Shown here: in pieces, positions 22,828-39,527 of the stretch
How the letters are laid out: each line of letters starts with the position of its first letter
Numbering within the stretch: the first letter of the stretch is position 1
DNA from: Halococcoides cellulosivorans
GTDB lineage: Archaea; Halobacteriota; Halobacteria; Halobacteriales; Haloarculaceae
Reading direction: 5' to 3'
Assembly: GCF_003058365.1 (NCBI RefSeq)
Contig: NZ_CP028858.1
Location: 2,158,836-2,222,835, forward strand
Length of the DNA: 64,000 bases
Translations under genes and position numbers: made by a program
Notes under the pieces: generated by a model
What the model was told of the DNA's origin: nothing
Seen by the model: the letters and a program-made list of their open reading frames with translations, nothing else
Database searches by the model: none

Positions 22828-23274
22828 CAAAAGAATTTTTTAAGGTAGGTTGAGACATTTCAGGTCACGAAAGCAATCGTTAGAACTGGCCTTAAAAATA
22901 ATATGTGGTTTGAAAATGTTTAGGTGGTAGTAAGCAAAGCTCATGCGGGTGGGCGGAGGCTCAAGCAATCCCTCCATCCTCAATTAAAAACAATTATATA
23001 TCAAAGAAAAAACCACATGGTAAAAATGTAATAATGGAATGATGAACTAATCTATTTGAATTATATTGGATTTTGCGGTTGGTAGACGGGTACTTACTCG
23101 GGTTTCAAAACTATGTATATAAGTTGGGTTGGGCTGAGTCCTCTTCCATGATGCTATTTTCGTTAGTCGATTTTAAGATAGAAGAAAGTGTAAACTGTCT
23201 AATCACACTTAAATATAGCTAATCTCTAATTGGGGCCCATCAAAATATAACTACACCACTTAATTTATAATATA
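22828..23274. other. AT-rich gene-free region
   Basis: 447 bases, strongly AT-rich, with no credible gene on either strand. It begins with a T-run (gaattttttaag, 22834-22844) that may end the upstream transcript. The composition matches the gene before it, so both probably arrived together. Confidence 0.6.
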
Positions 23275-24207
23275 TTAAGATATCGACCCATTATGAGAAT
23301 CACCAAGCACGAACCGGTTGTGCAACCGACGTCCGTATTTCCAGGCTGGACGGCCAAAGAAGGAGGCCAGCAACCCGCCGGCACAGGCCAAGTCGAAGCC
23401 TTTCGAGTGGTAATTCGCCAAGACCATGTGGCGAATCGCCTCATATGACCAGAACTGATTTTCCAGCCGAACCGCAGCCTCAAGTAAGTGCGATCGGCGT
23501 AAGGCAGCCCTCTTCAGTTCCGGGTTCACTTTCTCGTACAGGTCATCGTAATAGTCGATGATCGAGAGACGAACCGAGTCCTCGTCCTCGCCGACCTCTC
23601 CCCCACCGCTACTGAGAGCATCCGGAGAGTCACCTTTGTGAGTGAGTGCGTCATCGACAAAATCGAATTCCGTCCGTCGAGCAAGTTCGATTTTCATCGG
23701 TCCGTCGTCGCCCGGGAGATCAGCCGTCGGAGCAACGTCACGGAGAGTCGACCGGTCGATGAGCATCGTCGAAGGAAGACAGGGAGCCATCTCGAAGCCG
23801 AGGGCATTTTCGAGCACATTTCCCCGGATCTCGGGGTCGGGACGGACTTCGTGTCCGTTCTCCCAACGCAATCCATTGTAGACCACTCCGACGCCCTCGC
23901 CCTCATTCATGACGTCCATTTTCCGTTCGACTGTCGAGGGATCGAGTCGATCATCGTCGTCCAGAAAGTGAATATAGTCGTGAGTCGCCGTCTCGATGCC
24001 GAGATCACGATCTGCGGCGATGCCTCGGTCTTCGTCTTGGGCGACGTAAGTCACATCGAACCGATTGGCCACGTCTCTGGCGTGCTCTTCGCCAGATCCA
24101 TCGACGACGATCACTTCGACGGGGTCGTAGGTCTGATCGAGTGCACTCTCGATCGCCTCTGGTAACACGTCGTTTCTATAATGCGTCGTCACGACGATCG
24201 AAACCAT
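23275..24207 (-). CDS. GT2-family glycosyltransferase
   Basis: 310 residues. The GT-A domain starts MVSIVVTTHYRNDVLPEAI, with VEVIVVDGSGEEHARDVA and the donor-metal motif HDYIHFLDDDDRLDPSTVE (DxD). The C-terminal half has amphipathic segments, so it may sit at the membrane surface. It likely builds the surface glycan made by this island. ATG 24207 follows a TATA-like box on the minus strand. Confidence 0.9.
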   Translation of the reverse strand: MVSIVVTTHYRNDVLPEAIESALDQTYDPVEVIVVDGSGEEHARDVANRFDVTYVAQDEDRGIAADRDLGIETATHDYIHFLDDDDRLDPSTVERKMDVMNEGEGVGVVYNGLRWENGHEVRPDPEIRGNVLENALGFEMAPCLPSTMLIDRSTLRDVAPTADLPGDDGPMKIELARRTEFDFVDDALTHKGDSPDALSSGGGEVGEDEDSVRLSIIDYYDDLYEKVNPELKRAALRRSHLLEAAVRLENQFWSYEAIRHMVLANYHSKGFDLACAGGLLASFFGRPAWKYGRRLHNRFVLGDSHNGSIS

Positions 24208-24230
24208 TCATCCGTTCTTAAGTAACCAAC

Positions 24231-24238
24231 CAATAAAA
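24231..24238 (-). promoter_or_regulatory. TATA-like box of the GT2 gene
   Basis: On the minus strand ttttattg lies 24-31 bases before the ATG at 24207. Confidence 0.4.
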
Positions 24239-24340
24239 CCTTCTCACATCGTGCTGATTGAATCTTCCCTGATGCCCTGAGCATATCCGTGGCGTTTTAC
24301 AGTATCCCTTCTGAAGCGGAATCAAGTCGAGCAACGACGA

Positions 24341-25876
24341 ATGTCCGAGTCAAACGACGACCAATCGGCCGTCGACGCCGTCTCGACAGTCCTCTCCGGA
24401 GGAGTCCTTGTCTCCCTCGGAAAGGTGCTCGCTCTCGCCGCCGGATTTCTGACGCAAGTCACGATGGCCCGCCTCCTCACAGAGGCGGCCTACGGTGAAG
24501 TCGTACTTGCACTCTCGGTCGTCAACATTCTCGGATTGATCGGCAAGATGGGCCTCGACGACGGCCTCATGCGACAGTTCCCTCATTACGAGGACGACCC
24601 TGCGAAGGCACACGGCGTCGTCCGTGCTGGTTTCGGACTCGGAGTCCTGTCCGGTCTCTCGATCGGTGCCGCGATATTCCTCGCTGCGCCGATCATCGCC
24701 GGGCGTATCTTCGACAATCCCTCGCTCGTGCCACTCATTCGCCTCGCGGCGGTCATCGTTCCGCTTGCGACGATCAACCAGATCGCAGTCTCACTCGCTC
24801 GCGGGGCCCGCGATGCACGCCCACGTGCGTACATCAATCAGGCCCTCCAGCCAGGGTCGCGGTTCGTCCTCACGGCAGTATTTCTGCTGTTGGGACTCGA
24901 CGCGATCGGTGCGATCGGCGGGAAGGTCGGGTCGGTGCTGATCGGGACAGTCCTCGTCGTCTGGATGGCCTACCGGATTCTCCCCTCTTACGACGTCGAT
25001 CCCGAACCGATGTATCGCCCGGTGCTGGCGTTTTCGATCCCGCTGATCCTCGTCCAGGGACTGGGCTTTCTCAACACGAACGTCGACATCTACATGGTGG
25101 GCTACTTCCTGGAATCGGGCGATCTGGGGATCTACAACATCGGCCTGCAACTCAGCAACATGGTGAGTGCCGTGTTGATGACCGCAGGCTTCCTGTTGCC
25201 GCCGATGATGACGCGGTTGTACGATCAGGGCCAGACCGCCGAGACGCGCCGCGTCTACCAGTTGATCACGAAGTGGATGGTCGTGATCATCCTCCCGGTC
25301 GTGATCGTCCTGTTTTTCGCGCCACGCCTCGTGATCGGGACGCTGTTCGGGGAGGGGTATATTCCTGGTGCGACGGCCCTGCGGATCCTCCTCGTGGCCA
25401 AGGTCGTCGGCATCCTGATGGGGCTGAACACCCAGGGGCTCATCGCGCTGGGCGAGAACAAGATCGTCTCGTACGTCATCGCCTGCCAGACCGCCGTCAA
25501 CGTGGCCCTGAACGTCCTGCTCATTCCCGTCATCGGAATCGAGGGGGCGGCGATCGGCATGGCCGTGAGCGGTATCGTCGGCGACGTGCTCGGCGTCGCG
25601 ATTCTCCACCGGAAGTTCTCCGTCCACCCGTTCTCGCGGTCGGTGCTCGCCCCACTCGGGACGATCGGCGGCGTCGCCACTCTCACGGCGGCGGCCTTGT
25701 TCGTCCTCGAAGCGCCGCTCTACTGGACGGTCCCCGTGGTGGGACTCGTCTACCTGCCCATCGTGGTTCTGCTCGTTCCCGAACCCGAGGACCGCGAGTT
25801 GCTCACGCGCGTCGAGGACCAGATTGGCGTCGACCTCTCACTCGTCGATCGCCTGCTGTTCAGGAACCAGCACTGA
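24341..25876 (+). CDS. Wzx-like oligosaccharide flippase
   Basis: 511 residues with about 14 transmembrane helices. It is of the polysaccharide-exporter (MATE-like) superfamily: VLSGGVLVSLGKVLALAAGF at the N-terminus, RLLTEAAYGEVVLALSVVNI, GYFLESGDLGIYNIGLQLS and LFGEGYIPGATALRILLVA are all typical. It should turn lipid-linked glycans to the outer face. Its 3' end overlaps the convergent DUF2206-like gene by 17 bases. Confidence 0.93.
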   Translation: MSESNDDQSAVDAVSTVLSGGVLVSLGKVLALAAGFLTQVTMARLLTEAAYGEVVLALSVVNILGLIGKMGLDDGLMRQFPHYEDDPAKAHGVVRAGFGLGVLSGLSIGAAIFLAAPIIAGRIFDNPSLVPLIRLAAVIVPLATINQIAVSLARGARDARPRAYINQALQPGSRFVLTAVFLLLGLDAIGAIGGKVGSVLIGTVLVVWMAYRILPSYDVDPEPMYRPVLAFSIPLILVQGLGFLNTNVDIYMVGYFLESGDLGIYNIGLQLSNMVSAVLMTAGFLLPPMMTRLYDQGQTAETRRVYQLITKWMVVIILPVVIVLFFAPRLVIGTLFGEGYIPGATALRILLVAKVVGILMGLNTQGLIALGENKIVSYVIACQTAVNVALNVLLIPVIGIEGAAIGMAVSGIVGDVLGVAILHRKFSVHPFSRSVLAPLGTIGGVATLTAAALFVLEAPLYWTVPVVGLVYLPIVVLLVPEPEDRELLTRVEDQIGVDLSLVDRLLFRNQH

Positions 25877-28142
25877 CCCGCTCCGCTCGCGTCGTGTTCC
25901 GTTCCCGGACGATCTTGGCGTGATCGTTGACGTACAGGACGTGTCCATCGGTGTACGGCCCGAGATCGGTCTCGTAGAAGTTGAACTTGTACCCGATCGA
26001 AAAGCCCTGCAGGTCGAGGTTGTGGCCGAGCAGTCCGAGATAGGCGTTCGGTGGCAGACCGTCCATCGTCGAATTGACCATCTGATAGCGGTGACTCTGG
26101 CCCGTTCTGGACTGGATCGTTCCGGCATAGAAGTCCAGTTGGTTGCCCATCATCACGTCACCGTAGATCGTCGAACCCTGAGGGACGTTGTCACCGAGCC
26201 AGACGTGGGTCCGAACGTCACAGGGGACACACGCCCGCACCTGGAGCCGTTCGCGAGGCACGTCACTCGCGAGCAATCGCTGTTCGCTGACCTGGTTGCT
26301 CGGGGCGTAGTCGTTCGTGATCGTCTCGGCGACGAACCCGCTGTTGAGCAAGAAGAACACGGCGATGACCACTGCCAGAGCCGTCCGCGTGGCGGTGAGA
26401 GATCGGCCCACGTCGATAGCGTGGAGCCGATTCAGAAGCGACGGGAGTTCGTCCAGCCCGATCACCACGAACGGCACGGTGAACGTGAAGATGATCATCA
26501 TCACGCGCGCGACGGCGAACGCGTTCCCCGACGGGAGTGCCGACCCACCGAACATGGCGAAGAATCCGATTCCCAGCGCCAGGTGGCCCGTCGGGACCAC
26601 CTCCTCCCGATCGACGACGAGCCTGAAGATTGCGATGGCGATCCCGGCGGCCATGAGCAACCCAAAGACGACGTAGAGATACTTGGCCACCGTGATCGAG
26701 ACGGCCGAGTAATCCTGCTGGAACGAACTCACGGCACTCCCCGAGGTCTCGGCGTACATCACGCCCCTGACTCCGTCCAGGACCTTCGTCGGGAGTGTCG
26801 AGTACTTCCCCCCGAGCCCGGTGTGCAGATACCACGCGAGCGCCAGCGTGGCGTAGTACGCGACGTACCACGGCGAGAGGATCGCCGGCCGTGCGATCTC
26901 GAACGATCGCTCGGCGACACTGTCGAGGTGAGTCCGCAGTCGTCCCTCAGAAATTCGTGATGCCACCAGCGCGGGGAGATTGATCACGTGGAGCAGCTTG
27001 AGCAACGGGAACACGAACCCACCGGCGATGAGTGCGAACATGACGACGTACGCAGTCCCGTAGTGCGTGACAGCGACGCCAGCGCCGAACAGCAAGGCGA
27101 GTTTGTGTCTCGTCGACGGGACCAGTTCAGAGTCACTCGTCGCCAGCGCGAGCAACGCGAGGAAGATCACCGGTGTCGCCGCCCGCCCACCCGTGGGGTA
27201 GAGGACGTAAAACGAGTACGCGAACATGAAGATGCAGGCAGCGAGAAACGCCCCCGTCGGCGACGTGTACCGACGGTATGCTTCGTACAGCGCCACCGGA
27301 AGCACCGCGACGATGAACGGGTTCACGAGGTTCCACTCCAGAGCCATCGGCAAGCCGGTGACGACCGCGAAGACCGGGTACAGAACGCCGTTCGCCAGGA
27401 GTGACCCGATTCCCGATGCGTAGTTCGGGACCCACCGACCGAGTTCCATCGTGAGATTGGGGAGGGGTTGGGTGATCGTGAACGAGTCGAACAGCCGACC
27501 GTGATACACCAGCGACAGCGAGATACTCCAGACGGCGAGCGGCAAGTACCGCCGGCCACGGTCCGTCATCGCCACACCGACCGGGATGACGCCGATCACC
27601 CCGAGGAGCGCGAGCAAGAGCGCGTTGACTCCACCGACCGAATAGAGGGTGGTCCCGAACACGCTGGCGAACGGCAACAATAGCAACGCGAGCGGGACCG
27701 GCGAAACGATGTCCTCAGTTCGAACGCTGAGCGCGATCGTGGAATCACTCCAGACAGCCACGAGAGTGGCCAGGACTGCCGACAGTCCGACCAAAACCGG
27801 CAGCGTGAGTGGCCGATCTATCCCAACGAGTGGCAAGACGAGACTGGCCACACCCCCGATGGCCATGATCGAGGCGAGACTCAGCCCATAGATGTAACAG
27901 AGCGTCGTCGCGAGCGATCGTTCGGGAGCCCCGAGCGCCAGATAGGCGAACGCGCCGGGGACAAATAGGAGAAAGGCGACGGCGAACACTGGTCTGACCA
28001 GGGGAAGGTGAGGCCCAATCCAGTCGAGGACGGCAGGAACGACGATCCCCACGAGAAAGAATCCCGTGAGTCCCAACAGAGTTCGCCCGGTCAATCGGAG
28101 GCGAACGCGACCATCGTTTCGTTCGAACGATCCAGCGTTCAT
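25860..28142 (-). CDS. Large DUF2206-like polytopic membrane protein
   Basis: 760 residues with roughly 14-16 helices and an extracellular C-terminal domain of about 150 residues (from QVRACVPCDVRTHVWLGDN to the end). Patterns such as FLLFVPGAFAYLALGAPERS near the N-terminus and AVTHYGTAYVVMFALIAG fit the archaeal DUF2206 family, which resembles membrane glycosyltransferases of the GT-C type. A role in glycan assembly or transfer is likely from context. It is the last gene of the long minus-strand run and starts one base after the preceding stop. Confidence 0.8.
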   Translation of the reverse strand: MNAGSFERNDGRVRLRLTGRTLLGLTGFFLVGIVVPAVLDWIGPHLPLVRPVFAVAFLLFVPGAFAYLALGAPERSLATTLCYIYGLSLASIMAIGGVASLVLPLVGIDRPLTLPVLVGLSAVLATLVAVWSDSTIALSVRTEDIVSPVPLALLLLPFASVFGTTLYSVGGVNALLLALLGVIGVIPVGVAMTDRGRRYLPLAVWSISLSLVYHGRLFDSFTITQPLPNLTMELGRWVPNYASGIGSLLANGVLYPVFAVVTGLPMALEWNLVNPFIVAVLPVALYEAYRRYTSPTGAFLAACIFMFAYSFYVLYPTGGRAATPVIFLALLALATSDSELVPSTRHKLALLFGAGVAVTHYGTAYVVMFALIAGGFVFPLLKLLHVINLPALVASRISEGRLRTHLDSVAERSFEIARPAILSPWYVAYYATLALAWYLHTGLGGKYSTLPTKVLDGVRGVMYAETSGSAVSSFQQDYSAVSITVAKYLYVVFGLLMAAGIAIAIFRLVVDREEVVPTGHLALGIGFFAMFGGSALPSGNAFAVARVMMIIFTFTVPFVVIGLDELPSLLNRLHAIDVGRSLTATRTALAVVIAVFFLLNSGFVAETITNDYAPSNQVSEQRLLASDVPRERLQVRACVPCDVRTHVWLGDNVPQGSTIYGDVMMGNQLDFYAGTIQSRTGQSHRYQMVNSTMDGLPPNAYLGLLGHNLDLQGFSIGYKFNFYETDLGPYTDGHVLYVNDHAKIVRERNTTRAERVSAGS

Positions 28143-28143
28143 C

Positions 28144-29181
28144 TCAATCGTATCTGTTCTTTTCCACGGTTTTGTAAATACTTATCGTGAGATTTGCCGT
28201 TCGTTCCCACGTCATCTCGCGGGCAAACGCCCGTGACGCAGCACTCCGGCGGTCACGGTCGGTGTCGTCGTCGAGGAGTCGGCCCAGAAGTTCGACGTGG
28301 CGACCGATGTCGAGGGGATCGACGAGTTGGACCCCCTCGGTGTCGAAATCTCTCGCTGCCGAGTGCTCTGATGCGACGACCGGCGTCCCACAGGCCAATG
28401 CTTCGAGGATCGGCAACCCGAACGGTTCGTATGTCGACGGAAAATAAAACGCGGCGGCAGAACTGTACAGTTCGATCAACCGCTCCTTGGAGACGTACCC
28501 GAGGACCTCGACAGTCTCGATGGAATCCAATACCTCGCCGTGGTGTTCTGTCCATCCGTCCCCCGCGATGACCATTCGCCTCGACAATCGCTTGGCAGTT
28601 TCGATCACTGCAGACGGATTCTTGTGTGGCGAACACTTGCTCACGTGAAAGACGAAGTCACCGTCTCTCGATGTCGTCGGCGAGTTCAAGAAGGCCTCGT
28701 CGACCCCGTGAGGGACGAAATGGACCTGCTGGCTGTCGAACCCTGCATCCAGAAGGTACTCACGATCCATCGAACTGATCGCGATGATCGCGTCGACGTA
28801 TCTGCTAAATATCCGCTCCACACCGCGTTTGAACCTATCTGCGAACTGTCGAACTGCGTCGTTCGATTCGAGGTACATCGTCGCCTCGACGTCCGAGAAT
28901 TCCTCGACACCGTGTTCGGTCACGACGACTGCGGTGTCGTCTGAGCGAACGATCCGAGAGAGATCGGCAACGTGTCTCGACAGGCTCTCTTTCCCGTGGA
29001 CGAGGCGACCGAGTGGGTTGAGAGAGTTGAAGTGGATGACGTCAGCGGCCCCCGGAGTGTCGACCACGTCGACACCGTCGATTCGATCGCATTCGTCCGC
29101 CAACCGATCCATATACCGTCGTTGTGACGTCCACGTCGCATCGTTGCGATCCAGATACACCGACAGTTCGGACGCACACAT
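28144..29181 (-). CDS. GT4-family glycosyltransferase
   Basis: 345 residues with a GT-B fold. VHFVPHGVDEAF, HVSKCSPHKNPSAVIETA and AAFYFPSTYEPFGLPILEALACGTPVVASE mark the donor-binding half. ATG 29181 lies one base after the upstream stop, which favours it over an in-frame ATG at 29217 inside the previous gene. It resembles the enzyme at 19511-20458. Confidence 0.88.
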   Translation of the reverse strand: MCASELSVYLDRNDATWTSQRRYMDRLADECDRIDGVDVVDTPGAADVIHFNSLNPLGRLVHGKESLSRHVADLSRIVRSDDTAVVVTEHGVEEFSDVEATMYLESNDAVRQFADRFKRGVERIFSRYVDAIIAISSMDREYLLDAGFDSQQVHFVPHGVDEAFLNSPTTSRDGDFVFHVSKCSPHKNPSAVIETAKRLSRRMVIAGDGWTEHHGEVLDSIETVEVLGYVSKERLIELYSSAAAFYFPSTYEPFGLPILEALACGTPVVASEHSAARDFDTEGVQLVDPLDIGRHVELLGRLLDDDTDRDRRSAASRAFAREMTWERTANLTISIYKTVEKNRYD

Positions 29182-29182
29182 A

Positions 29183-30286
29183 TCAGTACAACTCGGCGAG
29201 TGATTCGACCCGTCCATCCCACGAGAACGCGTCGGCGAACCCCGTGAGATTTCGTTTCATCGTCGATCGCTGGCCCTCGTCCCGAAGCACTCCCTGCACT
29301 GCACTCCCGAAAGCGTCCTCGGGGGAAACGACGACTGCCGCAGACTCGTCCGCGAGGTCGTCCGCGACACTCGGGCCCTCCGAAAGCACCATCGGGACCC
29401 CGAGTGCCGCGTAGTAATAGATCTTCACCGGCGACGAGGCCTTCTGGAGCGACGAGGGCGTCTGTGGATTGATCGCCACCGCGGCCCGCGCGAGCAGCGG
29501 GAACGCCTCCGCGTCGGGCAACCGCCCCCGGACCTCCAGGGCGTCCAGGTCGCGCTCGCGTTTGCCCCGTTCCAGGGCCTCGCGTTTGGCCCCGTCCCCG
29601 ATCACGATGAGTTCCTCGACCTCGGGCAGCGCGGCGATCTCGAAAAACGCCTCGGCGTCGAGTTTCGGGTGGAGCGTCCCGAGAAAGACGACCCGTCCGG
29701 CCACGGTCTCGTCGGTCCGATACGGCGCGACGGTCTCGCCGTCGTAGCCGTTCGGGATGACGCTGATCGAGCGTGGATCGCGATCCCACTCCTCGGCGAC
29801 GAGCGTGCGCATGTTCTCCGAGACGACGACGATGTCGCCGGCGGCCTCGATCGCCCGGCTCTCGATACCGTAGATGGCGCGCTGGACGAGACCCCCCAGC
29901 GGGAGATCACCGTACCGCGACGAGGAGTGTGCCAGGTCGTGCATGTCGAGCACGTAGTCCCGCAGCCCCCAGAGCTGTCCGATTCCGGCGAGCGTCGAGT
30001 GTTCGAGTTGGACGGTCGCGTCGGACTCCCTGGCCAGCCGTTTCGCCCGGCGGACGATCAGCGACGCGCGGAGCGGTTCGTCGAGAATGCTCGCATTGGG
30101 CGTCGAGACGTCCGACACTTCGACCGCGGAGAGCCGCTCGGGCAGGTCCCGATCGGGCGTCGGGACGACGAGCGTGACCTCGAACCCACGCTCGGCCAGC
30201 CCGGACGCGAACGCCGTGACGCGGTTCGTCCCGCCGGTGGGATGGGACACGTCGCCGCCGTGGGCGATCACGATGTCGCGGGTCAT
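29183..30286 (-). CDS. GT4-family glycosyltransferase
   Basis: 367 residues with a GT-B fold. The N-terminus has IVIAHGGDVSHPTGGTNRVTAF, and the donor half contains ISVIPNGYDGE, VVFLGTLHPKLDAEAFFEIA and SSPVKIYYYAALGVPMVLSE. The usual E-x7-E is weak, so the donor is uncertain. ATG 30286 overlaps the stop of the upstream sulfatase-fold gene (ATGA). Confidence 0.88.
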   Translation of the reverse strand: MTRDIVIAHGGDVSHPTGGTNRVTAFASGLAERGFEVTLVVPTPDRDLPERLSAVEVSDVSTPNASILDEPLRASLIVRRAKRLARESDATVQLEHSTLAGIGQLWGLRDYVLDMHDLAHSSSRYGDLPLGGLVQRAIYGIESRAIEAAGDIVVVSENMRTLVAEEWDRDPRSISVIPNGYDGETVAPYRTDETVAGRVVFLGTLHPKLDAEAFFEIAALPEVEELIVIGDGAKREALERGKRERDLDALEVRGRLPDAEAFPLLARAAVAINPQTPSSLQKASSPVKIYYYAALGVPMVLSEGPSVADDLADESAAVVVSPEDAFGSAVQGVLRDEGQRSTMKRNLTGFADAFSWDGRVESLAELY

Positions 30287-31509
30287 GGCTGTTCGGTGCG
30301 GGCGAGCGTCGCCGTGGCGTCCGCGATCCGTGACTGTTCGGCCAGGTGCGTCCGGAACCGCTCGGCGAGGGCGTCGATGGGGTCGTCCCCCTCGGTCCAC
30401 GCCCCCGACACCGCCGACGTGTCGACGATCCGGCGCTCGCCGTCGGCCTCGACCAGCACCGCCGATCCGTCACGCGTCCACACACGGACCCCCGGCGCGC
30501 TCGACATCGCCGGCTCCGACCCGTCGGCCAGCGCCCCGAGAAACGACGGGAGCTCCCGAAGCGAGACGGTCTCGGAGACGGTCCGATCGTCGACGCCGTC
30601 CACGACGAACGGGACGTGGACGTTCTCGTCGTGGAGATACGGTTCGTGGCCGTAGAATCCGTGCTCGCCGAACGCCTCGCCGTGATCGCCGTGGACGGCG
30701 ACGATCGCGTCGTCGAGATCCTCGCGTAACTGCCCGAGAAAGGCGTCGCTGTACCGGATCGAGTCGTCGTACGCCGTCACCAGTTTGTCGTGCAGCCCGT
30801 CCGAAAACGGCGTTTCGTGACTCTGCCGCCAGAACTCGAAGTTCGCGTGAAACTCCTGTATACGCGACTGGTGCCGGAACTCCGAGTCCGACATGTAGGG
30901 GTTGTGCGCGTCCATCAGAAAGACCCACAGAAAATAGGGCTCGTCCGTATTGCTCGCCCACGAGACGGCGTCGTCGTAATAGGACTCCCAGGGCTTGAAC
31001 ACTTCCTCGCGCTGCCAGACGTTCATGAACACGCGGGCCAGCGACGAGACCCGACTCTCGTCGAGAAACCCGTCGAACACGCGTTGATACAGTCGGCCAC
31101 GGTTCGACTCGTCCATGAAGTCCTCGAACTGATCGAACCCCTGATCGAACCCGAAGTGTCGCGACGTGAACGGATTGGGAGTGAACGCGCCCGTCGTGTA
31201 CCCCCGGCGCTGGAGCGTCTCGGGCAGCGTCTCTCGGGCCTCCATGTGCGATCGAATGCGCTCACGGCGCGCCACGAGCGTCGAGTCGGCGTCCGTCTCG
31301 CGGTCGACCGGCCACTGACCGGTGAAGATGACCGGCATCGATTCGGGGGTGGCCGGACCGGGCGCGACGGCGTTCTCGAAGACGAGTCCGTCCGACGCCA
31401 TCGCGTCCAGTGTCGGCGTCGTCTCCTCGTCGTAGCCCATGAACCCGCAGTGATCGGCCCGAAGGCTGTCGATCGTGACGAGCACGATGTTCGGCCGGTC
31501 GTCGCTCAC
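30283..31509 (-). CDS. Sulfatase-fold enzyme
   Basis: 408 residues. The first metal site is NIVLVTIDSLRADHCGFMGY and the second IVAVHGDHGEAFGEHGFYGH. The nucleophile region (ENAVAPGPATPESMPVIFTG) lacks C-x-P-x-R. It is closely related to the neighbour at 31506-32795 (shared ADHCGFMGYD-ETTP-LDAMASDGLVFENA), which indicates tandem duplication. The GTG start overlaps the upstream stop. A glycan- or lipid-modifying role in the envelope is inferred. Confidence 0.88.
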   Translation of the reverse strand: MSDDRPNIVLVTIDSLRADHCGFMGYDEETTPTLDAMASDGLVFENAVAPGPATPESMPVIFTGQWPVDRETDADSTLVARRERIRSHMEARETLPETLQRRGYTTGAFTPNPFTSRHFGFDQGFDQFEDFMDESNRGRLYQRVFDGFLDESRVSSLARVFMNVWQREEVFKPWESYYDDAVSWASNTDEPYFLWVFLMDAHNPYMSDSEFRHQSRIQEFHANFEFWRQSHETPFSDGLHDKLVTAYDDSIRYSDAFLGQLREDLDDAIVAVHGDHGEAFGEHGFYGHEPYLHDENVHVPFVVDGVDDRTVSETVSLRELPSFLGALADGSEPAMSSAPGVRVWTRDGSAVLVEADGERRIVDTSAVSGAWTEGDDPIDALAERFRTHLAEQSRIADATATLARTEQP

Positions 31510-32795
31510 GTATCGGACACCTCCTCGACCGCCGCCCTGATCGCTCGCGTCTCCGTCTCCATCTGGACGTGCCTGGTCAGCGCGTCCGAGAACGCGTCGC
31601 GTCCCTCGGGCGACTCCTCGACGCGGTTGTCCTGTTCGCCCGGGTCGGCCCCGAGGTCGTACAGCGCCTCTCGGTCACCGTCCTTGAGGTATTTCCCCGA
31701 GCGCGTCCGCACGGCGGCGCGACGGTGTCCCTCGGCGAACACCTTCGAGGTCACCCACGGCCGCCCCGAATCGTCGAGCATCGACGGCGCTCTGAACGAC
31801 TGTGACGCGTCCGCCAGGTCTGCGATCGTCGGTGCGAGCTGCCGCAACCCGACCGGATCCGACACCCGTTCGTCGCGTCCGAGATTCCCGACGACGAGCG
31901 GGACGTGAATCAGCTCCTCGGTCAGGTAGGGTTGGTGGCCGTACCGGCCGTGTTCGCCGAACTCCTCGCCGTGGTCGGCGTGCACGACGAACACCGGATC
32001 GTCCGCAGCGAGATCGGATTGCAGTCGGTCGAGAAACTGGTCGCCGTATCGGATCGAATCGTCGTAGAGATTCACGAGACGGTCGTGAGTCTCGTCGTCG
32101 AAGTCCGGTTCCCACCCGTTGGTGAACATCTCGTAGTACTGTTGAAAGGCCCGATACTTGTCCGAGCGTGAACTCCACCGCTGGGTCTCCGATGGCGGCA
32201 TCCACGGATGGTGCGGTTCGAGCAAGAGCACCCACAGAAAGTAGGGCTCCTCGACGCGCTCGCGCCACGCCATGATCTGGTCGTAAAAGTCCGACCAGGG
32301 GCGAAGGATCTCGTCTTTCGTCACCACGTTTTTGAACAGTCGAAGGTACGTCGACAGCCCACCGCCTTCGATGGAATTCCGGAACACACGGTTCCATGCC
32401 CGTTCGACGACGCCCGTGTCCTCGGCCAGGAAGTCCTCGAACCAGTCGAACCCGCTGTCGAATCCGAAATACGACGACGCCGGTGGATTGGGCGACAGGG
32501 CCCCCGTACTGTACCCCGCGTTCGAGAGCACCTCGGCGATCGTCCGTCGGGAGGTGACTTGTTCACGCTGTTCGGTGTTGAACCCGATCTCGGGACTCGC
32601 CAGCGAGTGTTCGCCCGTCATCACCGCCGTCATCGAAGCGATGGTCGGAACCCCCGACGCGATGGCGTTCTCGAAGACGAGCCCGTCCGACGCCATCGCG
32701 TCGAGTGCGGGCGTCGTCTCTCGGTCGTACCCCATGAAACCGCAATGGTCGGCTCTGAGACTGTCGTATGTGATCAGGACGATATTCCGTGTCAT
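31506..32795 (-). CDS. Sulfatase-fold enzyme
   Basis: 429 residues. Motifs are NIVLITYDSLRADHCGFMGY, AIASGVPTIASMTAVMTGEH and VFVVHADHGEEFGEHGRYGH, with RTRSGKYLKDGDREALYDLG near the C-terminus as in true sulfatases. It is a close paralogue of the next gene. ATG 32795 overlaps the glycosyltransferase stop (ATGA), so an upstream in-frame ATG at 32843 is unlikely. Confidence 0.9.
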   Translation of the reverse strand: MTRNIVLITYDSLRADHCGFMGYDRETTPALDAMASDGLVFENAIASGVPTIASMTAVMTGEHSLASPEIGFNTEQREQVTSRRTIAEVLSNAGYSTGALSPNPPASSYFGFDSGFDWFEDFLAEDTGVVERAWNRVFRNSIEGGGLSTYLRLFKNVVTKDEILRPWSDFYDQIMAWRERVEEPYFLWVLLLEPHHPWMPPSETQRWSSRSDKYRAFQQYYEMFTNGWEPDFDDETHDRLVNLYDDSIRYGDQFLDRLQSDLAADDPVFVVHADHGEEFGEHGRYGHQPYLTEELIHVPLVVGNLGRDERVSDPVGLRQLAPTIADLADASQSFRAPSMLDDSGRPWVTSKVFAEGHRRAAVRTRSGKYLKDGDREALYDLGADPGEQDNRVEESPEGRDAFSDALTRHVQMETETRAIRAAVEEVSDT

Positions 32796-34039
32796 ATGAT
32801 CTCCTCGTACGTCGCAATACATTGCTGGGCGACCGTCGACCACGAATACTCGGCCGCGCGCTCGCGAGCGGCCCGCTCGACGCTCGGGCCTGTCCGGTCG
32901 GCCAGCGCGCGGTCGATCGCCGCCGCCAGCGCGTCGGGATCGTTCGGATCGACCAGCAGGCCCTGCTCGCCCGCACCGAGCAGGTCGGGCAGTGCGCCGA
33001 CGGTCGTCCCCACGACGGGCGTGCCCGCCGCGAGCGCCTCGACGGCGGTCATGCCGAAGCCCTCTTCGAGCGAGGGCAACACGAACAGATCCGCGATCGC
33101 GTACAGCGCGGGCAGGTCGGCCTCGGGGACGAACCCCGGCATCGTGAGGGCGCCGGCGACGCCGACGTCACGAGCGGTCGCCTGGACCCGGTCGACGTAC
33201 TCGCCGTCGAGGTCGTCCTCGCCGGCGACCACCAGATCGAGCGCGGGGCCGTCCACCTGACCGATCGCACGCACCAGATCGAGCACACCCTTCCGGGGCA
33301 TGACCGTCCCGACGAACAGGACGACCGGACCGTCACCGAGGCCGTACGCCTCCCGCACGCGCTCGCGCTCGGCCGTCGGGACGTCCCCGAACCGCTCCAG
33401 GTCGACGCCGTTGGGCAACACCGAGACGGTCGCCGGGTCGACCCCACAGTCGACGAACGCGTCGGCGACGTCGTCGTTCAGCACGGTCGTGTGCGCGACG
33501 CGAGTCGCGAGATACCGGTCCGGCGACGCGACCGAGAGGATCGACGGCGCGCTCACCAGGCCGTCGGCGCGCTGGTCGTCGGTCAGGACGTCCAGGCGCA
33601 ACTCCCCGAGGTGGGCGGTGTAGACCGTTCGCTCGCGCAATCCGGGCGCGACCGTCGCGAGCACGCTCGCCGCGAAGGGGAGATGGACGTGGATCACGTC
33701 GGGGTCGATCACCTGCAGGCGGCGGCGGGCCCGCCGCGCGAAGTTCGTCCGGTCGGCGACGAGACGGGCCAGGCCGAGCGGCGACGTGACCTGATCGTAG
33801 GGCACGCGCTCCCAGGGCTCGTCGGCCCCGGTCCGGAGTGCGATGCGATCGAAGGTGACGCCGTCGTGGCTGGCACTCGCGGGCAGGCCCGCCCATTGCC
33901 GCTCGACGACGCGCACGTCGTGGCCCTCTCGGGCGGTCTCGTGGGCGAGATGCCAGACGACGCGGGGGACCGACCCACGGCCGTCGTAGACCTGTTCGTG
34001 GCCGTCGTAGACGTGAACGACGGTGAGCGAGTCGGTCAC
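32792..34039 (-). CDS. GT4-family glycosyltransferase
   Basis: 415 residues. VSVLPNGVDLERF, VVLFVGTVMPRKGVLDLVRA and ADLFVLPSLEEGFGMTAVEALAAGTPVVGT are classic GT4 features with the donor-binding E-x7-E. The N-terminus (HVYDGHEQVYDGRGSVPRVVWHLA) should bind the acceptor. GTG 34039 overlaps the stop of a 33-residue ORF (GTGA) and fits the family start. Confidence 0.9.
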   Translation of the reverse strand: MTDSLTVVHVYDGHEQVYDGRGSVPRVVWHLAHETAREGHDVRVVERQWAGLPASASHDGVTFDRIALRTGADEPWERVPYDQVTSPLGLARLVADRTNFARRARRRLQVIDPDVIHVHLPFAASVLATVAPGLRERTVYTAHLGELRLDVLTDDQRADGLVSAPSILSVASPDRYLATRVAHTTVLNDDVADAFVDCGVDPATVSVLPNGVDLERFGDVPTAERERVREAYGLGDGPVVLFVGTVMPRKGVLDLVRAIGQVDGPALDLVVAGEDDLDGEYVDRVQATARDVGVAGALTMPGFVPEADLPALYAIADLFVLPSLEEGFGMTAVEALAAGTPVVGTTVGALPDLLGAGEQGLLVDPNDPDALAAAIDRALADRTGPSVERAARERAAEYSWSTVAQQCIATYEEII

Positions 34040-34137
34040 TGACGGGGCCCTCCACGAGCGCTGTCCACGGGGTCGATCGACGCCGCCGGTCCCCACCGCT
34101 CGACCGCCGTCGCCGGATCCACACCCACCCCACCCAT
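34036..34137 (-). CDS. Possible 33-residue peptide
   Basis: An ATG 5 bases after the stop of the ribbon-helix-helix gene opens a frame of 33 residues (MGGVGVDPATAVERWGPAAS..., ending GGPRQ) whose TGA overlaps the GTG of the glycosyltransferase. Spacing and overlap fit a coupled operon gene, but the peptide matches nothing I know and does not contain the lasso motif. Confidence 0.25.
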   Translation of the reverse strand: MGGVGVDPATAVERWGPAASIDPVDSARGGPRQ

Positions 34138-34142
34138 CGCCG

Positions 34143-34364
34143 TCAGTCCTCCAGATATCCGAGTGATTTGAGCCGGTCCTCGACCTCCTGTTCGTCGACC
34201 GTGTCGTCGACGGCGTCGTCGGTCTCGACGCTGGCGAGCACCTCTTCGATCACGAAGGTGATGTACTCGCTCGCGGAATCGAACTCGGTCCGCGACAGTC
34301 GGTCCTCGACCCGATCGACGATCTCCGGCGGGAGGTCGACCGACTGTGTGGTGGCAGGGGTCAT
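34143..34364 (-). CDS. Ribbon-helix-helix-like protein with a sulfatase-type C-terminal tail
   Basis: 73 residues. SVDLPPEIVDRVEDRLSRTE and FDSASEYITFVIEEVLASV form a ribbon-helix-helix-like unit. An acidic linker leads to EVEDRLKSLGYLED, almost the same tail as in the sulfatase-fold proteins ending at 20455 and 22827. No toxin gene follows, so it is not an obvious antitoxin. It could regulate the island or dock to its enzymes. It lies 46 bases after the kinase gene, and that gap is AT-rich enough to hold a promoter (attgtacaaaa at 34390-34400). Confidence 0.7.
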   Translation of the reverse strand: MTPATTQSVDLPPEIVDRVEDRLSRTEFDSASEYITFVIEEVLASVETDDAVDDTVDEQEVEDRLKSLGYLED

Positions 34365-34410: not shown

Positions 34411-35271
34411 TCACGCTACGTTCCCCTCCTCCAGAACGGCTCGCACCGCGGCCCTGGTCTCGACTGCCGATCGGTCGCCGTCGGCCCCCGCGACCGAGAC
34501 GACCGGGACCGATTCAGCGAGCGCGGTCCACCGGTCGACGGTCCGCTCGACGGTGTCCGGCCGCGCGTCGAGATGGGTGGTGTATGAGGCCCCCAAGAGC
34601 GTGAGTGCTGCCGCGGCCGGCGACCGACGCCCGCCGTCATCGTCGAGGGCGACGATCGCATCGATCGGAAGGACTGCGCCGGATCGGTCCGGCGACAGGC
34701 GGTGAATCGCGCCGTCGCCGGTCGCCAGCGGGTGGCGCTCGACCGGCGTCAGCCCGGTGGCCTCGACGGCCGTCGGCGTGGTCCGGACGAGCGGTGGGCC
34801 GGCGATCAGCGCCGGACGGTCGGCCAGAACGGGCACCACGTCGTCAGCGAGCACCGTCCCACCGGCCGCGGCAAGCTGCATCGCGAGCGTGGACTTGCCG
34901 GCCCCCGAGGGCCCGACGATCACGACGACCCCGCCGTCGATCAGTGCGGCGCTGCCGTGGAGCAAGTCCCGCCCGCGCTGATGGCAGAGAGCGGCGATAC
35001 CGACGCCGAGGATCGGCCCGGCGAGTGCGGCCGCCGACACGCCCTCGGCGCGGTCGACGACGAGGCGTCGCCCCTCGTGGGCCGACAGCGTCGCCACGTC
35101 CGGAATCCGGACACCGCCGCGCGTCTCGTCGACGGGCGCGGCGAGCACCCTCTCCTCGACCGTCCCGGTCTCGATCCGAACGTCCGGGTCGCCTGTCGCT
35201 GTCGGGAGGGGTAACTCGACCGGCGAGTCGAAAAGCAGATCGAAACAGCGGTACGTCTCGCGGGTCGCCAT
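34411..35271 (-). CDS. HPr kinase-like protein of the lasso locus
   Basis: 286 residues. The C-terminal half has the HPrK-like P-loop fold: LLHGSAALIDGGVVVIVG then GPSGAGKSTLAMQL (Walker A at about residues 118-125), followed by VLADDVVPVL. The N-terminal half is the variable domain seen in HprK-related kinases. In the paeninodin lasso cluster of Paenibacillus such a kinase phosphorylates the C-terminal Ser of the precursor. Here it begins 8 bases after the precursor stop, and the precursor core has Thr and Ser near its end. The substrate is inferred from position. Confidence 0.85.
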   Translation of the reverse strand: MATRETYRCFDLLFDSPVELPLPTATGDPDVRIETGTVEERVLAAPVDETRGGVRIPDVATLSAHEGRRLVVDRAEGVSAAALAGPILGVGIAALCHQRGRDLLHGSAALIDGGVVVIVGPSGAGKSTLAMQLAAAGGTVLADDVVPVLADRPALIAGPPLVRTTPTAVEATGLTPVERHPLATGDGAIHRLSPDRSGAVLPIDAIVALDDDGGRRSPAAAALTLLGASYTTHLDARPDTVERTVDRWTALAESVPVVSVAGADGDRSAVETRAAVRAVLEEGNVA

Positions 35272-35279
35272 CCCGAGTG

Positions 35280-35402
35280 TCAGGGAGACCCGGTCGCGAA
35301 CGCGTCGAAGTCGCCGCCTCCAGTCCCCCGAGTCAGGTGCTCGACAGCCCCGTACTCGTGGAGTTCCGGCGGTTCGTAGTCGTCGGTGCCGTCTTGATCC
35401 AT
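35280..35402 (-). CDS. Lasso-peptide-like precursor peptide
   Basis: A 40-residue ORF missed by size filters. The leader (residues 1-25) has Tyr9, Pro12, Leu14, Gly18 and Leu23-Thr24, an exact match to YxxPxLxxxGxxxxLT, the site bound by B1/RRE proteins. Thr24 is at position -2 and Arg25 at -1. The predicted core is GTGGGDFDAFATGSP: Gly at position 1 and Asp at position 8 would close an eight-residue macrolactam ring, leaving a seven-residue tail with Phe10 as a possible plug and Thr12/Ser14 as possible phosphorylation sites. It sits 25 bases after the cyclase-like gene and 8 bases before the kinase gene. An alternative is a non-lasso RiPP using the same RRE. Confidence 0.82.
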   Translation of the reverse strand: MDQDGTDDYEPPELHEYGAVEHLTRGTGGGDFDAFATGSP

Positions 35403-35427: not shown

Positions 35428-37272
35428 TCAATGCTTGGGAGCGTCCGGCCGGTGGTGGGACCACGCCGCGAGCATCCCGGGCCGGTAGACCCGCGCCGTC
35501 AACGCCGGAAACGGGCCCTCGGCCGCTCGGTCGAGCGCCCCGAGACACGCGTCGCGGTCGAGATACCGCCAGAGGGCGTCCGGCGTAGTGTCGTACAGCT
35601 GACGAATCTGCTCGCGCTCGTCGACCAGCGCGCGCCGATAGGCCGGCGCGAGCGAACTCTTGTGGTGGCGGTCCCGAACCCGCTCGGGGAGTTCTACCGC
35701 CCGCCGGAGGATCGACCGGGACACGCCGTCTCGCAGGGACTGATCGGCGGGCATCCCGATGCAGAACGCCATCAGCCGGCGATCGAAGAAGGGAAATCGT
35801 GGCTCGACGCCCGCGGCCGCGCCGAGCGCGTTCGCGGCTTCGAGGTCGAACTGCCAGTTCGGCCGTGCGAGGCCGGCGACCTGTCGCTCGCGATGGGTCG
35901 CCAGCGGTGAGGGCGTCACCTGCGCTTGGCGCAGGCGATCGGGCCACGCGACCGCGCGGGCCCGATCGCGGTCGATCACCGGCGACAGGCGCTCGATCGG
36001 ATCACCGTCCCGGAGTCGACGGGCGAGACGACGGGCCGAGCGGGGCACCAGCGGGCGGACGGCGTCGGTGTACAGCCGTCGCCAGGGCGACTCCCCGCGG
36101 TGATGTGCTCGCGCGCGGAGTTCCCGCGCCAGGCCGAGCCAGTGGCCACGCCGCGCCAGATCGGTGAGGCGCCCGAGGCCGTGTGAGACGACCGCGTCGC
36201 CGCCGAACCCGCCGAGCACCACGTCGACGTCGGCCGCCGCGGCCCGGTAGAGCCGCCAGTGGAGATACGTCGTGTTGCCACGGATCGGCCGGCCGACCGC
36301 CGACAGCATCGCCTCGGCGTCCGCGAACGGGCCAGGGGCGTCGCCGTCGACGACGGTCGATCGCGCGCCCACGTGATCGACGACCGCTCGGGCGTACTCG
36401 CGCTCGTCGGAGACCGGCGTCGCGTCGAACCCCAGCGAGTACGTCGGAATCTGCGATCGGTGGCCGGCCGCCGCGCAGGTGACCGCCGAGGAGTCCAGCC
36501 CACCGCTGAGGAGACTGCCGACCGCGGGGCCGCGACAGCGATCTGCGACCGCACGGTCGAAGAGTTCGCGAAACCCGACCTCGTAGGCCCGATCGGAGGG
36601 CAGATCGAGTGGGTCGATCGCTTCGGGTCGCCAGTGCCGGCGTCGTTCGATCCCGTCGGTCGTGACCGTCGCACTCGTCCCGGCCGGGAGGCGGTCGACG
36701 TCGGCGTAGATCGTCCGCGCGGCCGACGAGGCGGCGCCGACGAGGCCCTCGACGACCACGCCGTCGTCGACCGCAGTCGTGACCCATTCGAGCGCGAGCA
36801 ACGGTTCGATGTCGGAGGCGACGGCCACCCGGTCGGCGGTCCGAGCCAGAAACGCCGGCCGGAGCCCCGCGTGATCGCGCGCGAGGAAGACCCGGTCGGC
36901 CGCTCGATCGACGATCGCCACCGCGTACGCTCCGACCAGGTGTACGGGACAGGCCCGGCCCCACTGCCGATAGGCCGCCAGCACGAGCGCGGCGTCCGAG
37001 ACCGGGTCGTCGAACGGACCGAGTCGGTCCCGGAGTGCGGCCCGGTTGTCGATCCGGGCCGCGCCGGTCACCAGCACCCGACCGTCCTGCAGTGGAAACC
37101 CCGTGGGCCAGGGCGTCGTCCGGTGCTGAAGGTGGGCCAGCGCGACCGACCCGTCGACGAGCGAACGGCGACCGTCCGGGCCGCGGTGGGTGATCACCGA
37201 GACCGCACGCTCGACGGCGTCGACGTCCACAGGCGTCCCGTCCAGTCGGGCGATCGCGACGAACCCGCTCAC
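35428..37272 (-). CDS. Asparagine-synthetase-like lasso cyclase (C protein)
   Basis: 614 residues. The N-terminal class II amidotransferase-like domain (about 1-190) contains THRGPDGRRS and LARDHAGLRPAFLA. The synthetase domain has the PP-loop SLLSGGLDSSAVTCAAAG (about 235-250), YSLGFDA, VLGGFGGDAV and a C-terminal RFPFFDRRLMAFCIGMPADQ. Lasso C proteins activate the ring Asp/Glu as the adenylate and close the macrolactam. GTG 37272 aligns VSGFVAI with MCGIVGI of AsnB, so the nucleophile Cys is replaced by Ser and glutamine hydrolysis is unlikely. GTG is also preferred because a TATA-like box covers the upstream ATG at 37299. True asparagine synthetase is the alternative, but gene context favours a cyclase. 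Confidence 0.85.
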   Translation of the reverse strand: MSGFVAIARLDGTPVDVDAVERAVSVITHRGPDGRRSLVDGSVALAHLQHRTTPWPTGFPLQDGRVLVTGAARIDNRAALRDRLGPFDDPVSDAALVLAAYRQWGRACPVHLVGAYAVAIVDRAADRVFLARDHAGLRPAFLARTADRVAVASDIEPLLALEWVTTAVDDGVVVEGLVGAASSAARTIYADVDRLPAGTSATVTTDGIERRRHWRPEAIDPLDLPSDRAYEVGFRELFDRAVADRCRGPAVGSLLSGGLDSSAVTCAAAGHRSQIPTYSLGFDATPVSDEREYARAVVDHVGARSTVVDGDAPGPFADAEAMLSAVGRPIRGNTTYLHWRLYRAAAADVDVVLGGFGGDAVVSHGLGRLTDLARRGHWLGLARELRARAHHRGESPWRRLYTDAVRPLVPRSARRLARRLRDGDPIERLSPVIDRDRARAVAWPDRLRQAQVTPSPLATHRERQVAGLARPNWQFDLEAANALGAAAGVEPRFPFFDRRLMAFCIGMPADQSLRDGVSRSILRRAVELPERVRDRHHKSSLAPAYRRALVDEREQIRQLYDTTPDALWRYLDRDACLGALDRAAEGPFPALTARVYRPGMLAAWSHHRPDAPKH

Positions 37273-37294
37273 ACCCGTCGATCGGAGGCGACAG

Positions 37295-37303
37295 CCCATA
37301 AGC
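37295..37303 (-). promoter_or_regulatory. TATA-like box of the cyclase-led operon
   Basis: On the minus strand gcttatggg has its ttat core 26-29 bases before GTG 37272. It would be the promoter of the whole lasso-glycan run and decides the start codon. Confidence 0.5.
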
Positions 37304-37351
37304 GATCGGCCCCACTCGTGGACCGATCCCATCGTTGCGATGATCGATAGA

Positions 37352-37383: not shown

Positions 37384-38892
37384 ATGGGCGAAATGATAGG
37401 TATTCGACAGGCTGCAATCGTTCTCGCGGTCGTCGCGGTGGTCGGTGGGGCGTTCGCGGGCGTCGCGTCGGCCCAGAGTGGAGTGTCGGACCGGATCGTC
37501 GTGGACGCGTCGGGCAACGGCGACTACACGTCGATCCAGGCAGCGGTCGACAACGCGAGTACAGGGACGACGATCGAGATCGAGCCGGGCGAGTACAGCG
37601 AGGCAGTCACCGTCGGGACCTCGAATCTGACCATCGTCGGAACACCCGGCGAGGACCGTCCAGGCCCGGGTGAGGACGCCCCGGTCATGAACGGGACGGG
37701 GAGCGACGCCCCGGCCGTGACGCTCGGCGCGGGCGTCGAGGACGTGCGTATCGAGGGGCTCGTCATGGAGGACTACCGGGCGGGCGCGACGTTCGTGAAC
37801 GGCGTCGATGCGGGTGACCACGAGGACGTGGTGATCGCCCACAACCGCATCGAGGCTCACTCCGGCGTCGGGGTCGTCGCGAGTGACGGCACGACCCTCT
37901 CGGACGTTCGCGTGACCGCCAACGTCGTCGACGTCACTGCCAACGGCGTGCTCTCGAAGACCGTCGACGACGGCAGTCCGGCCGTGATCGAGAACCTCAC
38001 GATCGAGAGGAACGCGTTCACCGGCGGGGTCAACGGGATCTATCTGGTGGGCTCCAGCGCCGGTGACCAGCGAGCGGTCTCGATCACGAACAACACCTTC
38101 CAGAACGTCGACGTCGGTGTCGAACTCGACACCGAGATGAACGCGTCGGCGGTGACCGTTCGGGCGAACGCGTTCGACGAGACGGACTCCTACGGCGTCC
38201 AGAACCGCAACACGGCAGCGAACGTCGACGCCACGCACAACGACTGGGGCGCGCCGTCCGGCCCGTACAACCCGACGACGAACCCCGGCGGGGCTGGCGA
38301 GCGCGTCAGCGCGAACGTCGAGTACGACCCCTGGGACACGCGATACGTCGAGTTGGGATCGGCGTCTGGCGGGAGCGGCCAGAACGTAACGGTTCCAGTG
38401 ACGGTCCACAGCGACGACATCGCCGGCTACGAACTGGAGATCAGCTACGACCCCTCGGTGGTCCGTCCGGTCGGTATCAGCGATGGAGAGTTCGAACGCC
38501 CGGTCAGCCACATCGACGAGAGCCACGGGCTGATCAACATCACGGCCGCACAGGCAACGTCGGCCTCCGCGCCGACGGTCGCCCAGATCACCTTCGAGGT
38601 CGTTGGCGAGGTGAACGACACCGCCACGATCGAGGTCGATTCGGGCGAGTCGGCCGTCTTCGGGACGAACGGGACGGAACTCGACGCCGCCTACGGGCAG
38701 AGCACCGTCAGCGTCGACCTGCTCGGTGACGTCGACGACGACGGCCGCGTCACCGCCGGTGACGCCGTCCTCCTCCAGCGGCACCTGGTGGGCGAGTCGG
38801 TCGCGATCGACGAGAGCGCCGCCGACGTGGACGCCGACGGTGACGTCGACGCCGGCGACGTGCTGGCGCTCCAGAAGCGACTGGTGGCCTGA
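37384..38892 (+). CDS. Secreted beta-helix protein with cohesin and dockerin domains
   Basis: 502 residues. A Sec signal peptide (AAIVLAVVAVVGGAFAGVASAQ) is followed by a right-handed parallel beta-helix at about 35-310, with repeats such as VSITNNTFQNVDVGVELD and an N-terminal GNGDYTSIQAAVDNASTGTT typical of pectate-lyase/NosD folds. A cohesin-like domain (about 335-435, NVTVPVTVHSDDIAGYELEI) precedes a type I dockerin (DVDDDGRVTAGDAVLLQRHL and DVDADGDVDAGDVLALQKRL). It could bind both ways within a surface complex. The beta-helix may bind or cut a polysaccharide; no catalytic residues are certain. It is followed after 8 bases by the anchored cohesin gene. Confidence 0.88.
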   Translation: MGEMIGIRQAAIVLAVVAVVGGAFAGVASAQSGVSDRIVVDASGNGDYTSIQAAVDNASTGTTIEIEPGEYSEAVTVGTSNLTIVGTPGEDRPGPGEDAPVMNGTGSDAPAVTLGAGVEDVRIEGLVMEDYRAGATFVNGVDAGDHEDVVIAHNRIEAHSGVGVVASDGTTLSDVRVTANVVDVTANGVLSKTVDDGSPAVIENLTIERNAFTGGVNGIYLVGSSAGDQRAVSITNNTFQNVDVGVELDTEMNASAVTVRANAFDETDSYGVQNRNTAANVDATHNDWGAPSGPYNPTTNPGGAGERVSANVEYDPWDTRYVELGSASGGSGQNVTVPVTVHSDDIAGYELEISYDPSVVRPVGISDGEFERPVSHIDESHGLINITAAQATSASAPTVAQITFEVVGEVNDTATIEVDSGESAVFGTNGTELDAAYGQSTVSVDLLGDVDDDGRVTAGDAVLLQRHLVGESVAIDESAADVDADGDVDAGDVLALQKRLVA

Positions 38893-38900
38893 CTGCCGGC

Positions 38901-39527
38901 ATGTCCCGCCGTTCGATCGCCGTCACACTCGTCGTCGTCGCGGTCCTCGCCCCGTCGGTCGCGGGCGCACAGACCGCCGTCTCCGTCGGGAACGCGACTG
39001 GGGCCCCCGGAGAGACCGTCACCGTTCCCGTCGCGATCACTGACGCGACCGTGGCGAGCTATCAGGTGCGGATCGAGTACAACGCCTCGGTCCTCGCGGT
39101 GGAGTCGGTCTCGGGCGTCGACCTCGGAGACCCCGTCGTCGCCGGCGACGACGGCGTCCTCCAGGTGACCCAGACCAGATCGGACGGCGTCACAGATCCC
39201 GTCGTCGCGCGCGTGACCTTCGAGGTGATCGGCCCCTCAGAGACACCGTCCACGCTGTGGATCGCGCCGTCGGCCACGAAGGCGTTCGCCCCCAACGGAA
39301 CCGAACTGTCGATCACGGAGTATCGTCACGGCCAGGTCCGGGTTGGATCGGCGGCGCCGACCAGCCAGGCCGTCGCGTCGTCGACGGCGACTGCGGCGAC
39401 GACCACACCGAGCGCCGGGCCGAGCGAGAAGGCCTCCGGCAGCCCCGTGCTCTGGATCGTCGGGGCACTGGTCGGGGGCGTGCTCCTCGGCGCACTCGTC
39501 GTCCTCGCGATCGGCCGCTGGACCTAG
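38901..39527 (+). CDS. Membrane-anchored cohesin protein
   Basis: 208 residues. Signal peptide (AVTLVVVAVLAPSVAGAQ), one cohesin-like domain at about 22-150 (VSVGNATGAPGETVTVPVAI ... YQVRIEYNASVLAVESVSG), a Thr/Ala/Ser linker and a C-terminal helix (LWIVGALVGGVLLGALVVLA) that fixes it in the membrane. Cohesins bind dockerins, so this protein could hold the dockerin proteins at 37384 and 5707 on the cell surface. It is in one operon with the preceding gene. Its stop overlaps the convergent acetyltransferase stop. Confidence 0.85.
   Translation: MSRRSIAVTLVVVAVLAPSVAGAQTAVSVGNATGAPGETVTVPVAITDATVASYQVRIEYNASVLAVESVSGVDLGDPVVAGDDGVLQVTQTRSDGVTDPVVARVTFEVIGPSETPSTLWIAPSATKAFAPNGTELSITEYRHGQVRVGSAAPTSQAVASSTATAATTTPSAGPSEKASGSPVLWIVGALVGGVLLGALVVLAIGRWT

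Follow-up and report, generated by a model that had tools for sequence, protein, structure and literature searches.

Probable Precursor Gene

The window analyzed here is a 64-kb stretch of the genome of the haloarchaeon Halococcoides cellulosivorans. At 35280–35402, on the minus strand, it carries gene A, a putative lasso precursor gene of 40 codons and a stop codon. The original prediction had placed at this site a 40-residue open reading frame with every fixed position of the leader pattern YxxPxLxxxGxxxxLT. The frame exists, on a strand that the prediction left unstated, and its minus-strand translation, MDQDGTDDYEPPELHEYGAVEHLTR followed directly by GTGGGDFDAFATGSP and the stop, contains Tyr9, Pro12, Leu14, Gly18, Leu23, and Thr24. 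The plus-strand reading of the same interval reads through and lacks the motif, and was rejected. An alternative GTG start located 8 codons upstream, which would give a product of 48 amino-acid residues, is possible.

Against NCBIfam NF033521 (lasso_leader_L3, "lasso RiPP family leader peptide-containing protein"), the product reaches 22.7 bits (E 6.8e-05), above the curated cut-off of 19. The strict pattern occurs once in the six frames of the window and nowhere in 200 kb of random control DNA of related genomes. Residue composition predicts 1.3e-3 strict matches for each window and 3.1e-6 for the 156-nt gap between the genes that flank A, which bears out the earlier view that the match is beyond chance. 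The expectation that gene callers would miss such a frame is plausible, given that the homologous frame of Halopiger xanaduensis has no CDS in the incomplete gene table of PLSDB, but the NCBI leader model would flag frames of this kind.

The 25-residue leader peptide MDQDGTDDYEPPELHEYGAVEHLTR (35328–35402, minus strand) has Tyr at −17, Pro at −14, Leu at −12, and Thr at −2, a register as in Bradymonas BsfA (PMC10368454). The core peptide GTGGGDFDAFATGSP (35283–35327, minus strand) has Gly1 and Asp8, as originally proposed, and thus an acceptor within positions 7–9, where Asp or Glu is sought. The leader register, together with the G1...D8 cores of type II homologues (see section Precursor Types), predicts a Gly1–Asp8 macrolactam with a 7-residue tail. 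The sole bulky residue in this tail is Phe10, two positions beyond the acceptor, which leaves stable threading uncertain. The core ends in TGSP, in which Ser is penultimate rather than C-terminal. The predicted [M+H]+ of the core is 1338.560 for the cyclic form (minus water), 1418.526 with added phosphate, and 1580.579 with phosphate and hexose.

Cyclase and Kinase Genes

Gene A lies between a cyclase homologue and a kinase homologue, with gaps of 25 nt (cyclase stop at 35428) and 8 nt (kinase start at 35271), in agreement with the original prediction. Gene C (35428–37332, minus strand) encodes a putative AsnB-like lasso macrolactam cyclase, and its likely true start is a GTG at 37272 (MSGFVAI...). 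NF033535, the lasso cyclase family, is its best family match (415.6 bits, below the group-model cut-off of 525), and PF00733 is also matched. The ATP motif SGGLDSS is intact, and alignment with homologues places the start at MSG, without the glutaminase Cys. Among 146 genomes of the same family, the cyclase sides with other lasso cyclases, with matches of 1e-84 to 1e-115 in eight (G131, G431, G277, G412, G396, G390, G414, and G392), whereas all others, to ordinary AsnB-like proteins, are at 1e-38 or weaker. This gap, the lasso-like MSG start, the missing glutaminase Cys, and the fact that C is the only AsnB-like match in its own genome rule out a housekeeping AsnB.

Gene K (34411–35271, minus strand) encodes a putative HPrK-like peptide kinase. 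It scores 28.2 bits against PF07475, below the cut-off of 33.3, and the structure predicted for it (pLDDT 90) corresponds to the PEPCK/HPrK fold. The motif His105, Lys126, Asp143, Asp144 is invariant in 21 homologues; the His-Lys-Asp-Asp motif is essential in lasso kinases (PMC9266682). A C-terminal Ser was considered and set aside as a requirement for the relevance of the kinase: the core of A lacks one, yet BsfK modifies Ser3 of its core (PMC10368454). Both C and K sit on long branches in their trees.

B1, B2, and N Genes

Lasso biosynthesis needs an RRE (B1) and a leader peptidase (B2) in addition to the cyclase. The original prediction was right about the cyclase and kinase, but the pathway is larger and split: it overlooked B1, B2, and N, which lie in the same window on the plus strand and overlap one another in turn by a few bases. 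B1 (15053–15349) encodes a PqqD-like RiPP recognition element with 79 bits against PF05402 and 71.7 bits against NF033536, under the cut-off of 80 for the latter; like C and K, it thus scores under the curated cut-off of its best family model. A profile built from B1 together with its homologues hits TbiB1, a lasso RRE of solved structure (PDB 5v1u), at 6e-21. B2 (15346–15735), which overlaps the B1 stop, encodes a putative leader peptidase that exceeds the cut-off of 33 for the NCBI lasso-B2 model NF033537 (59.2 bits) and matches PF13471 at 62 bits; Cys68 and His102 are invariant among its aligned homologues. N (15732–16796) encodes a PF14907 nucleotidyltransferase (NTP_transf_5; 148 bits) that, by analogy, probably tailors the product with sugar-phosphate.

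B1 and B2 are the only matches over cut-off to PF05402 and PF13471 in the whole 2.72-Mb single-contig genome. A full-length match to the haloarchaeal lasso ABC exporter (MsbA-like D) is absent from the genome. As judged from gene content, the system is complete apart from this exporter, but rearranged.

Arrangement of the Genes

In the window, C-A-K and B1-B2-N are about 18 kb apart, whereas in a syntenic locus of the same family (L059, genome G131) C-A-K-B1-B2-N is contiguous. The cyclase of that locus is sister to C of the window (support 99/97), and its cluster is flanked by orthologues of the window genes at 14522, 16842, 17240, 19511 (glycosyltransferase), and 20455 (sulfatase). Because the intact cluster is flanked by orthologues of window genes, the window is read as one locus in which the two halves have been separated. 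Synteny thus points to a single system, of which C-A-K and B1-B2-N were moved apart inside a surface-polysaccharide locus. Exporter D is absent locally from the intact cluster also. In a further genome (L068, G392), the block that adjoins K in the window (28144-29183-30283-31506-32792-34143) keeps its gene order and lies next to a different lasso cluster.

The precursor of the intact locus (L059:9865-10020), the closest relative of A, has the core GSKGKGRGRGRGRGRGASRGDGLGGGR, which contains no Asp or Glu at positions 7–9 although the layout is shared and a cyclase is present. This precursor overlaps the longest kinase frame and is possibly repeat-derived or degenerate.

Precursor Types in Haloarchaea and Bacteria

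All 31 tabulated haloarchaeal precursors, including that of the window, fit Y..P.[LIVMF]...G....[LVI]T. A similar pattern served in part to gather this set, but the position of these genes beside C or K does not depend on it. The conservation of Tyr, Pro, Leu, Gly, and Thr that the original prediction named as a check is therefore found in 30 other precursors, nearly all of which adjoin a lasso-type cyclase or kinase. The B2 profile is positive in 29 of the 392 genomes of the order. Named members of the precursor set come from Halopiger xanaduensis (L077 = NC_015658.1), in which B2 is annotated as a lasso protein, Halosimplex salinum (L136), and Natronoglomus mannanivorans (L133). About 20 related archaeal loci have the same kind of gene adjoining the same enzymes. 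Because all needed enzymes are encoded nearby and these loci pair such a gene with the same enzymes, A very probably encodes the raw material of a lasso peptide. Co-linear C-A-K with B1/B2/N is also found in cyanobacteria, Rubrobacter, Acidobacteria, and other bacteria. Three loci with leader-model matches in which lasso enzymes are absent (L079, L081, and L082) were left out.

The window belongs to type II, with co-linear C-A-K and a G1...D8 core, together with L063 and one cluster each in L070 and L073. In the last of these loci (Natronoglomus mannanivorans, = L133), a type I precursor lies on each side of the type II cluster, and the locus carries two cyclases and three kinases.

Type I, the majority (L061-L078, L119, and L120), has a conserved x-K-x5-D core in which x is mostly Asn or Asp and which ends near LxGS; its kinase gene mostly lies on the other strand. 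An Asp follows the core Lys at +6 in each of the 23 sequences that were counted, whereas the distance from the leader Thr to this Asp varies from 10 to 14. Because the Lys–Asp spacing is fixed and the Thr–Asp distance variable, the type I ring probably does not begin at the residue that follows Thr-x. The spacing points to a ring that begins at the residue before Lys, or to a Lys–Asp side-chain isopeptide. A count from the residue before Lys brings these cores into line with Gly1...Asp8 and the aromatic residue 10 of the window core. The same K+6 Asp spacing occurs in some cyanobacterial and acidobacterial precursors (L142, L145, L146, and L151).

Type III consists of B1-B2-A-K-N without a local lasso cyclase, and is found in one genus with many B2-positive genomes (six of which were fetched) and in G032 and G029. 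Its loci (L113-L118, L121, and L122) include a 32-residue precursor, MKEYETPSVETYGTVEEKTNWWDHDDGYGKWS, that is conserved in the one genus. In a whole-genome check that covered six of these eight, G198, G083, G032, and G029 were without a lasso-type cyclase, G227 gave one weak match, and G125 and G003 gave only AsnB-like matches near 1e-62. Type III clusters resemble the linear polyphosphorylated peptides (LPPs) of Bacilli, from which they differ by the B2 peptidase.

Genomic Surroundings

The region between the two halves (19511–34096) contains surface-polysaccharide genes for glycosyltransferases, three sulfatase-fold proteins, a flippase, and a DUF2206 membrane protein, and orthologous blocks lie beside the lasso clusters of L059 and L068. 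Next to K, a gene at 34143–34364 (minus strand) encodes a small acidic protein that appears RHH-like by inspection; it has no significant Pfam family match, and its homologues occur in the sulfatase/glycosyltransferase block of other lasso loci. Homologues of the glycosyltransferase, sulfatase, flippase, or related membrane genes of the window are present in 17 of 22 haloarchaeal cyclase-bearing loci and in none of 10 random 20-kb stretches (Fisher p 5e-5, with some loci near-duplicates, controls from few genomes, and one control with an RHH-like match only). Paeninodin-like lasso and LPP clusters of Bacilli are likewise located in capsule loci (PMC13381572).

A role of the haloarchaeal product at the surface is a reasonable hypothesis. 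In a broader form, these clusters, that of the window included, would make phosphorylated or phosphoglycosylated lasso-type peptides of the cell surface or extracellular matrix rather than secreted antibiotics, and the type I ring would be closed from the fixed Lys (a Lys to Asp+6 isopeptide) or from a start set by Lys, not from the residue that follows the leader Thr. The surface or matrix reading arises because the window has no dedicated exporter and the genes are set among glycosyltransferases, sulfatases, and a flippase; this combined proposal is a speculative one, and rather unlikely to hold in full.

Further features of the window lie outside the lasso genes. At 37384–39527, divergent from the cyclase gene, a secreted beta-helix protein that carries cohesin and dockerin domains is encoded, and after it another secreted protein, an unusual pair beside lasso genes in an archaeon. 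Genes at 21892–22827 and 53624–54298 have third-position GC of 0.40 and 0.47, against about 0.85 in their neighbors, which suggests a recent foreign origin. A DDE transposase gene lies at 54880–55740.

Model for Peptide Maturation and Alternatives

There is good reason for confidence that 35280–35402 encodes a haloarchaeal lasso precursor of the phosphorylated type (paeninodin/Bradymonas). The points that weigh against this reading are the short tail, the penultimate Ser, the scores of C, B1, and K below curated cut-offs, the long branches of C and K, the split gene set, the lack of an exporter, and the core of the closest relative, which has no ring acceptor. In a mechanism modelled on paeninodin, pseudomycoidin, and BsfA (PMC8498205, PMC9266682, PMC10368454), B1 would bind the YxxPxL leader and K, through His-Lys-Asp-Asp, would phosphorylate a Ser or Thr of the core, most likely Ser14 or Thr12 and possibly Thr2. 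B2 would cleave after Arg25, behind Thr(−2), and C would adenylate Asp8 and join it to the amine of Gly1, forming an 8-residue ring with a 7-residue tail. N may then attach a sugar to this phosphate, like its homologue in the pseudomycoidin pathway.

The same enzymes might instead yield a peptide that is not classically threaded, either branched-cyclic (unthreaded) or a linear, LPP-like phospho- or glyco-peptide. Such an outcome would fit the short, Gly-rich core of A without plug residues, the core at L059 that has no acceptor despite a cyclase, the related haloarchaeal B1-B2-A-K-N loci without any cyclase, and the LPPs, which are phosphorylated, lack a cyclase, and lie within capsule loci (PMC13381572). 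It is nevertheless unlikely, though worth bearing in mind, as an intact lasso-type cyclase gene adjoins A and Gly1 and Asp8 stand in the exact classical register. The 18-kb split, the lack of an exporter in the genome, the long branches of C and K, and the scores below cut-offs are also what would be seen in a decaying cluster, inherited from a complete L059-like operon, then split and losing function. All six reading frames (C, A, K, B1, B2, and N) are intact with conserved catalytic motifs, however, and A keeps all leader positions and the acceptor Asp, which makes decay improbable.

That A is a chance frame between a housekeeping asparagine synthetase gene and an unrelated kinase gene is hardly credible. 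It has only 40 codons, and the number of strict matches expected per window is above zero, but that expected in the C-K gap is 3e-6, the cyclase has a lasso start without the glutaminase Cys, and B1 and B2 are present in the genome; the conservation of the leader in 30 other haloarchaeal precursors refutes it. With the lasso precursor as the preferred reading, the locus is a compact testable case, as the core has 15 residues, five enzymes are identified, and the masses are predicted exactly, and the role of phosphorylated lasso peptides becomes testable in genetically tractable haloarchaea.

Comparison with Known Systems

The original prediction regarded archaeal lasso peptides as little explored. 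Lasso clusters in archaea had in fact been predicted earlier by genome mining (PMC10093198, PMC12144867), but no report of a purified archaeal lasso product was found in the literature searched; within the literature searchable here, lanthipeptides are the only archaeal RiPP products described as validated (PMC12144867). The plasmid cluster of Halopiger xanaduensis (PMC10093198; lassopeptides in PMC12144867) resembles that of the window in having B1, B2, an AsnB-like C, K, and N in Halobacteria. It belongs to the type I clade, with an x-K-x5-D core and a kinase gene convergent to A, whereas the window falls in the other clade: its C-A-K genes are co-linear and its core is of the G1...D8 form.

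The bsf cluster of Bradymonas sediminis (PMC10368454) shares A, B1, B2, C, K, and N, the leader residues Tyr(−17), Pro(−14), and Leu(−12), the Gly1–Asp8 ring, and the His, Lys, Asp, Asp kinase motif. It differs in being bacterial and contiguous, in its ABC exporter D, in Ile(−2) for Thr(−2), and in phosphorylation of core Ser3, a position occupied by Gly in the window. The Bacilli clusters for paeninodin and pseudomycoidin (PMC8498205, PMC9266682) have A, C, K, B1, and B2 in common with the window (N too, for pseudomycoidin), as well as an HPrK-like kinase with His-Lys-Asp-Asp. Their kinases modify a C-terminal Ser, whereas that of the window core is penultimate, and they carry exporter D, which the window genome lacks. 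The Bacilli cyclases found are only about 24–29% identical to C.

LPP clusters (PMC13381572) have in common with the window an RRE, an HPrK-like kinase, an NTP transferase, and a YxxP leader in polysaccharide loci; they lack a cyclase and employ a SipW-like peptidase, whereas both C and B2 are encoded in the window. Seen side by side, the loci reveal a broader haloarchaeal family in which at least three types of precursor occur, one of them cyclase-less; as in Bacilli, the family recurs in surface-polysaccharide loci.
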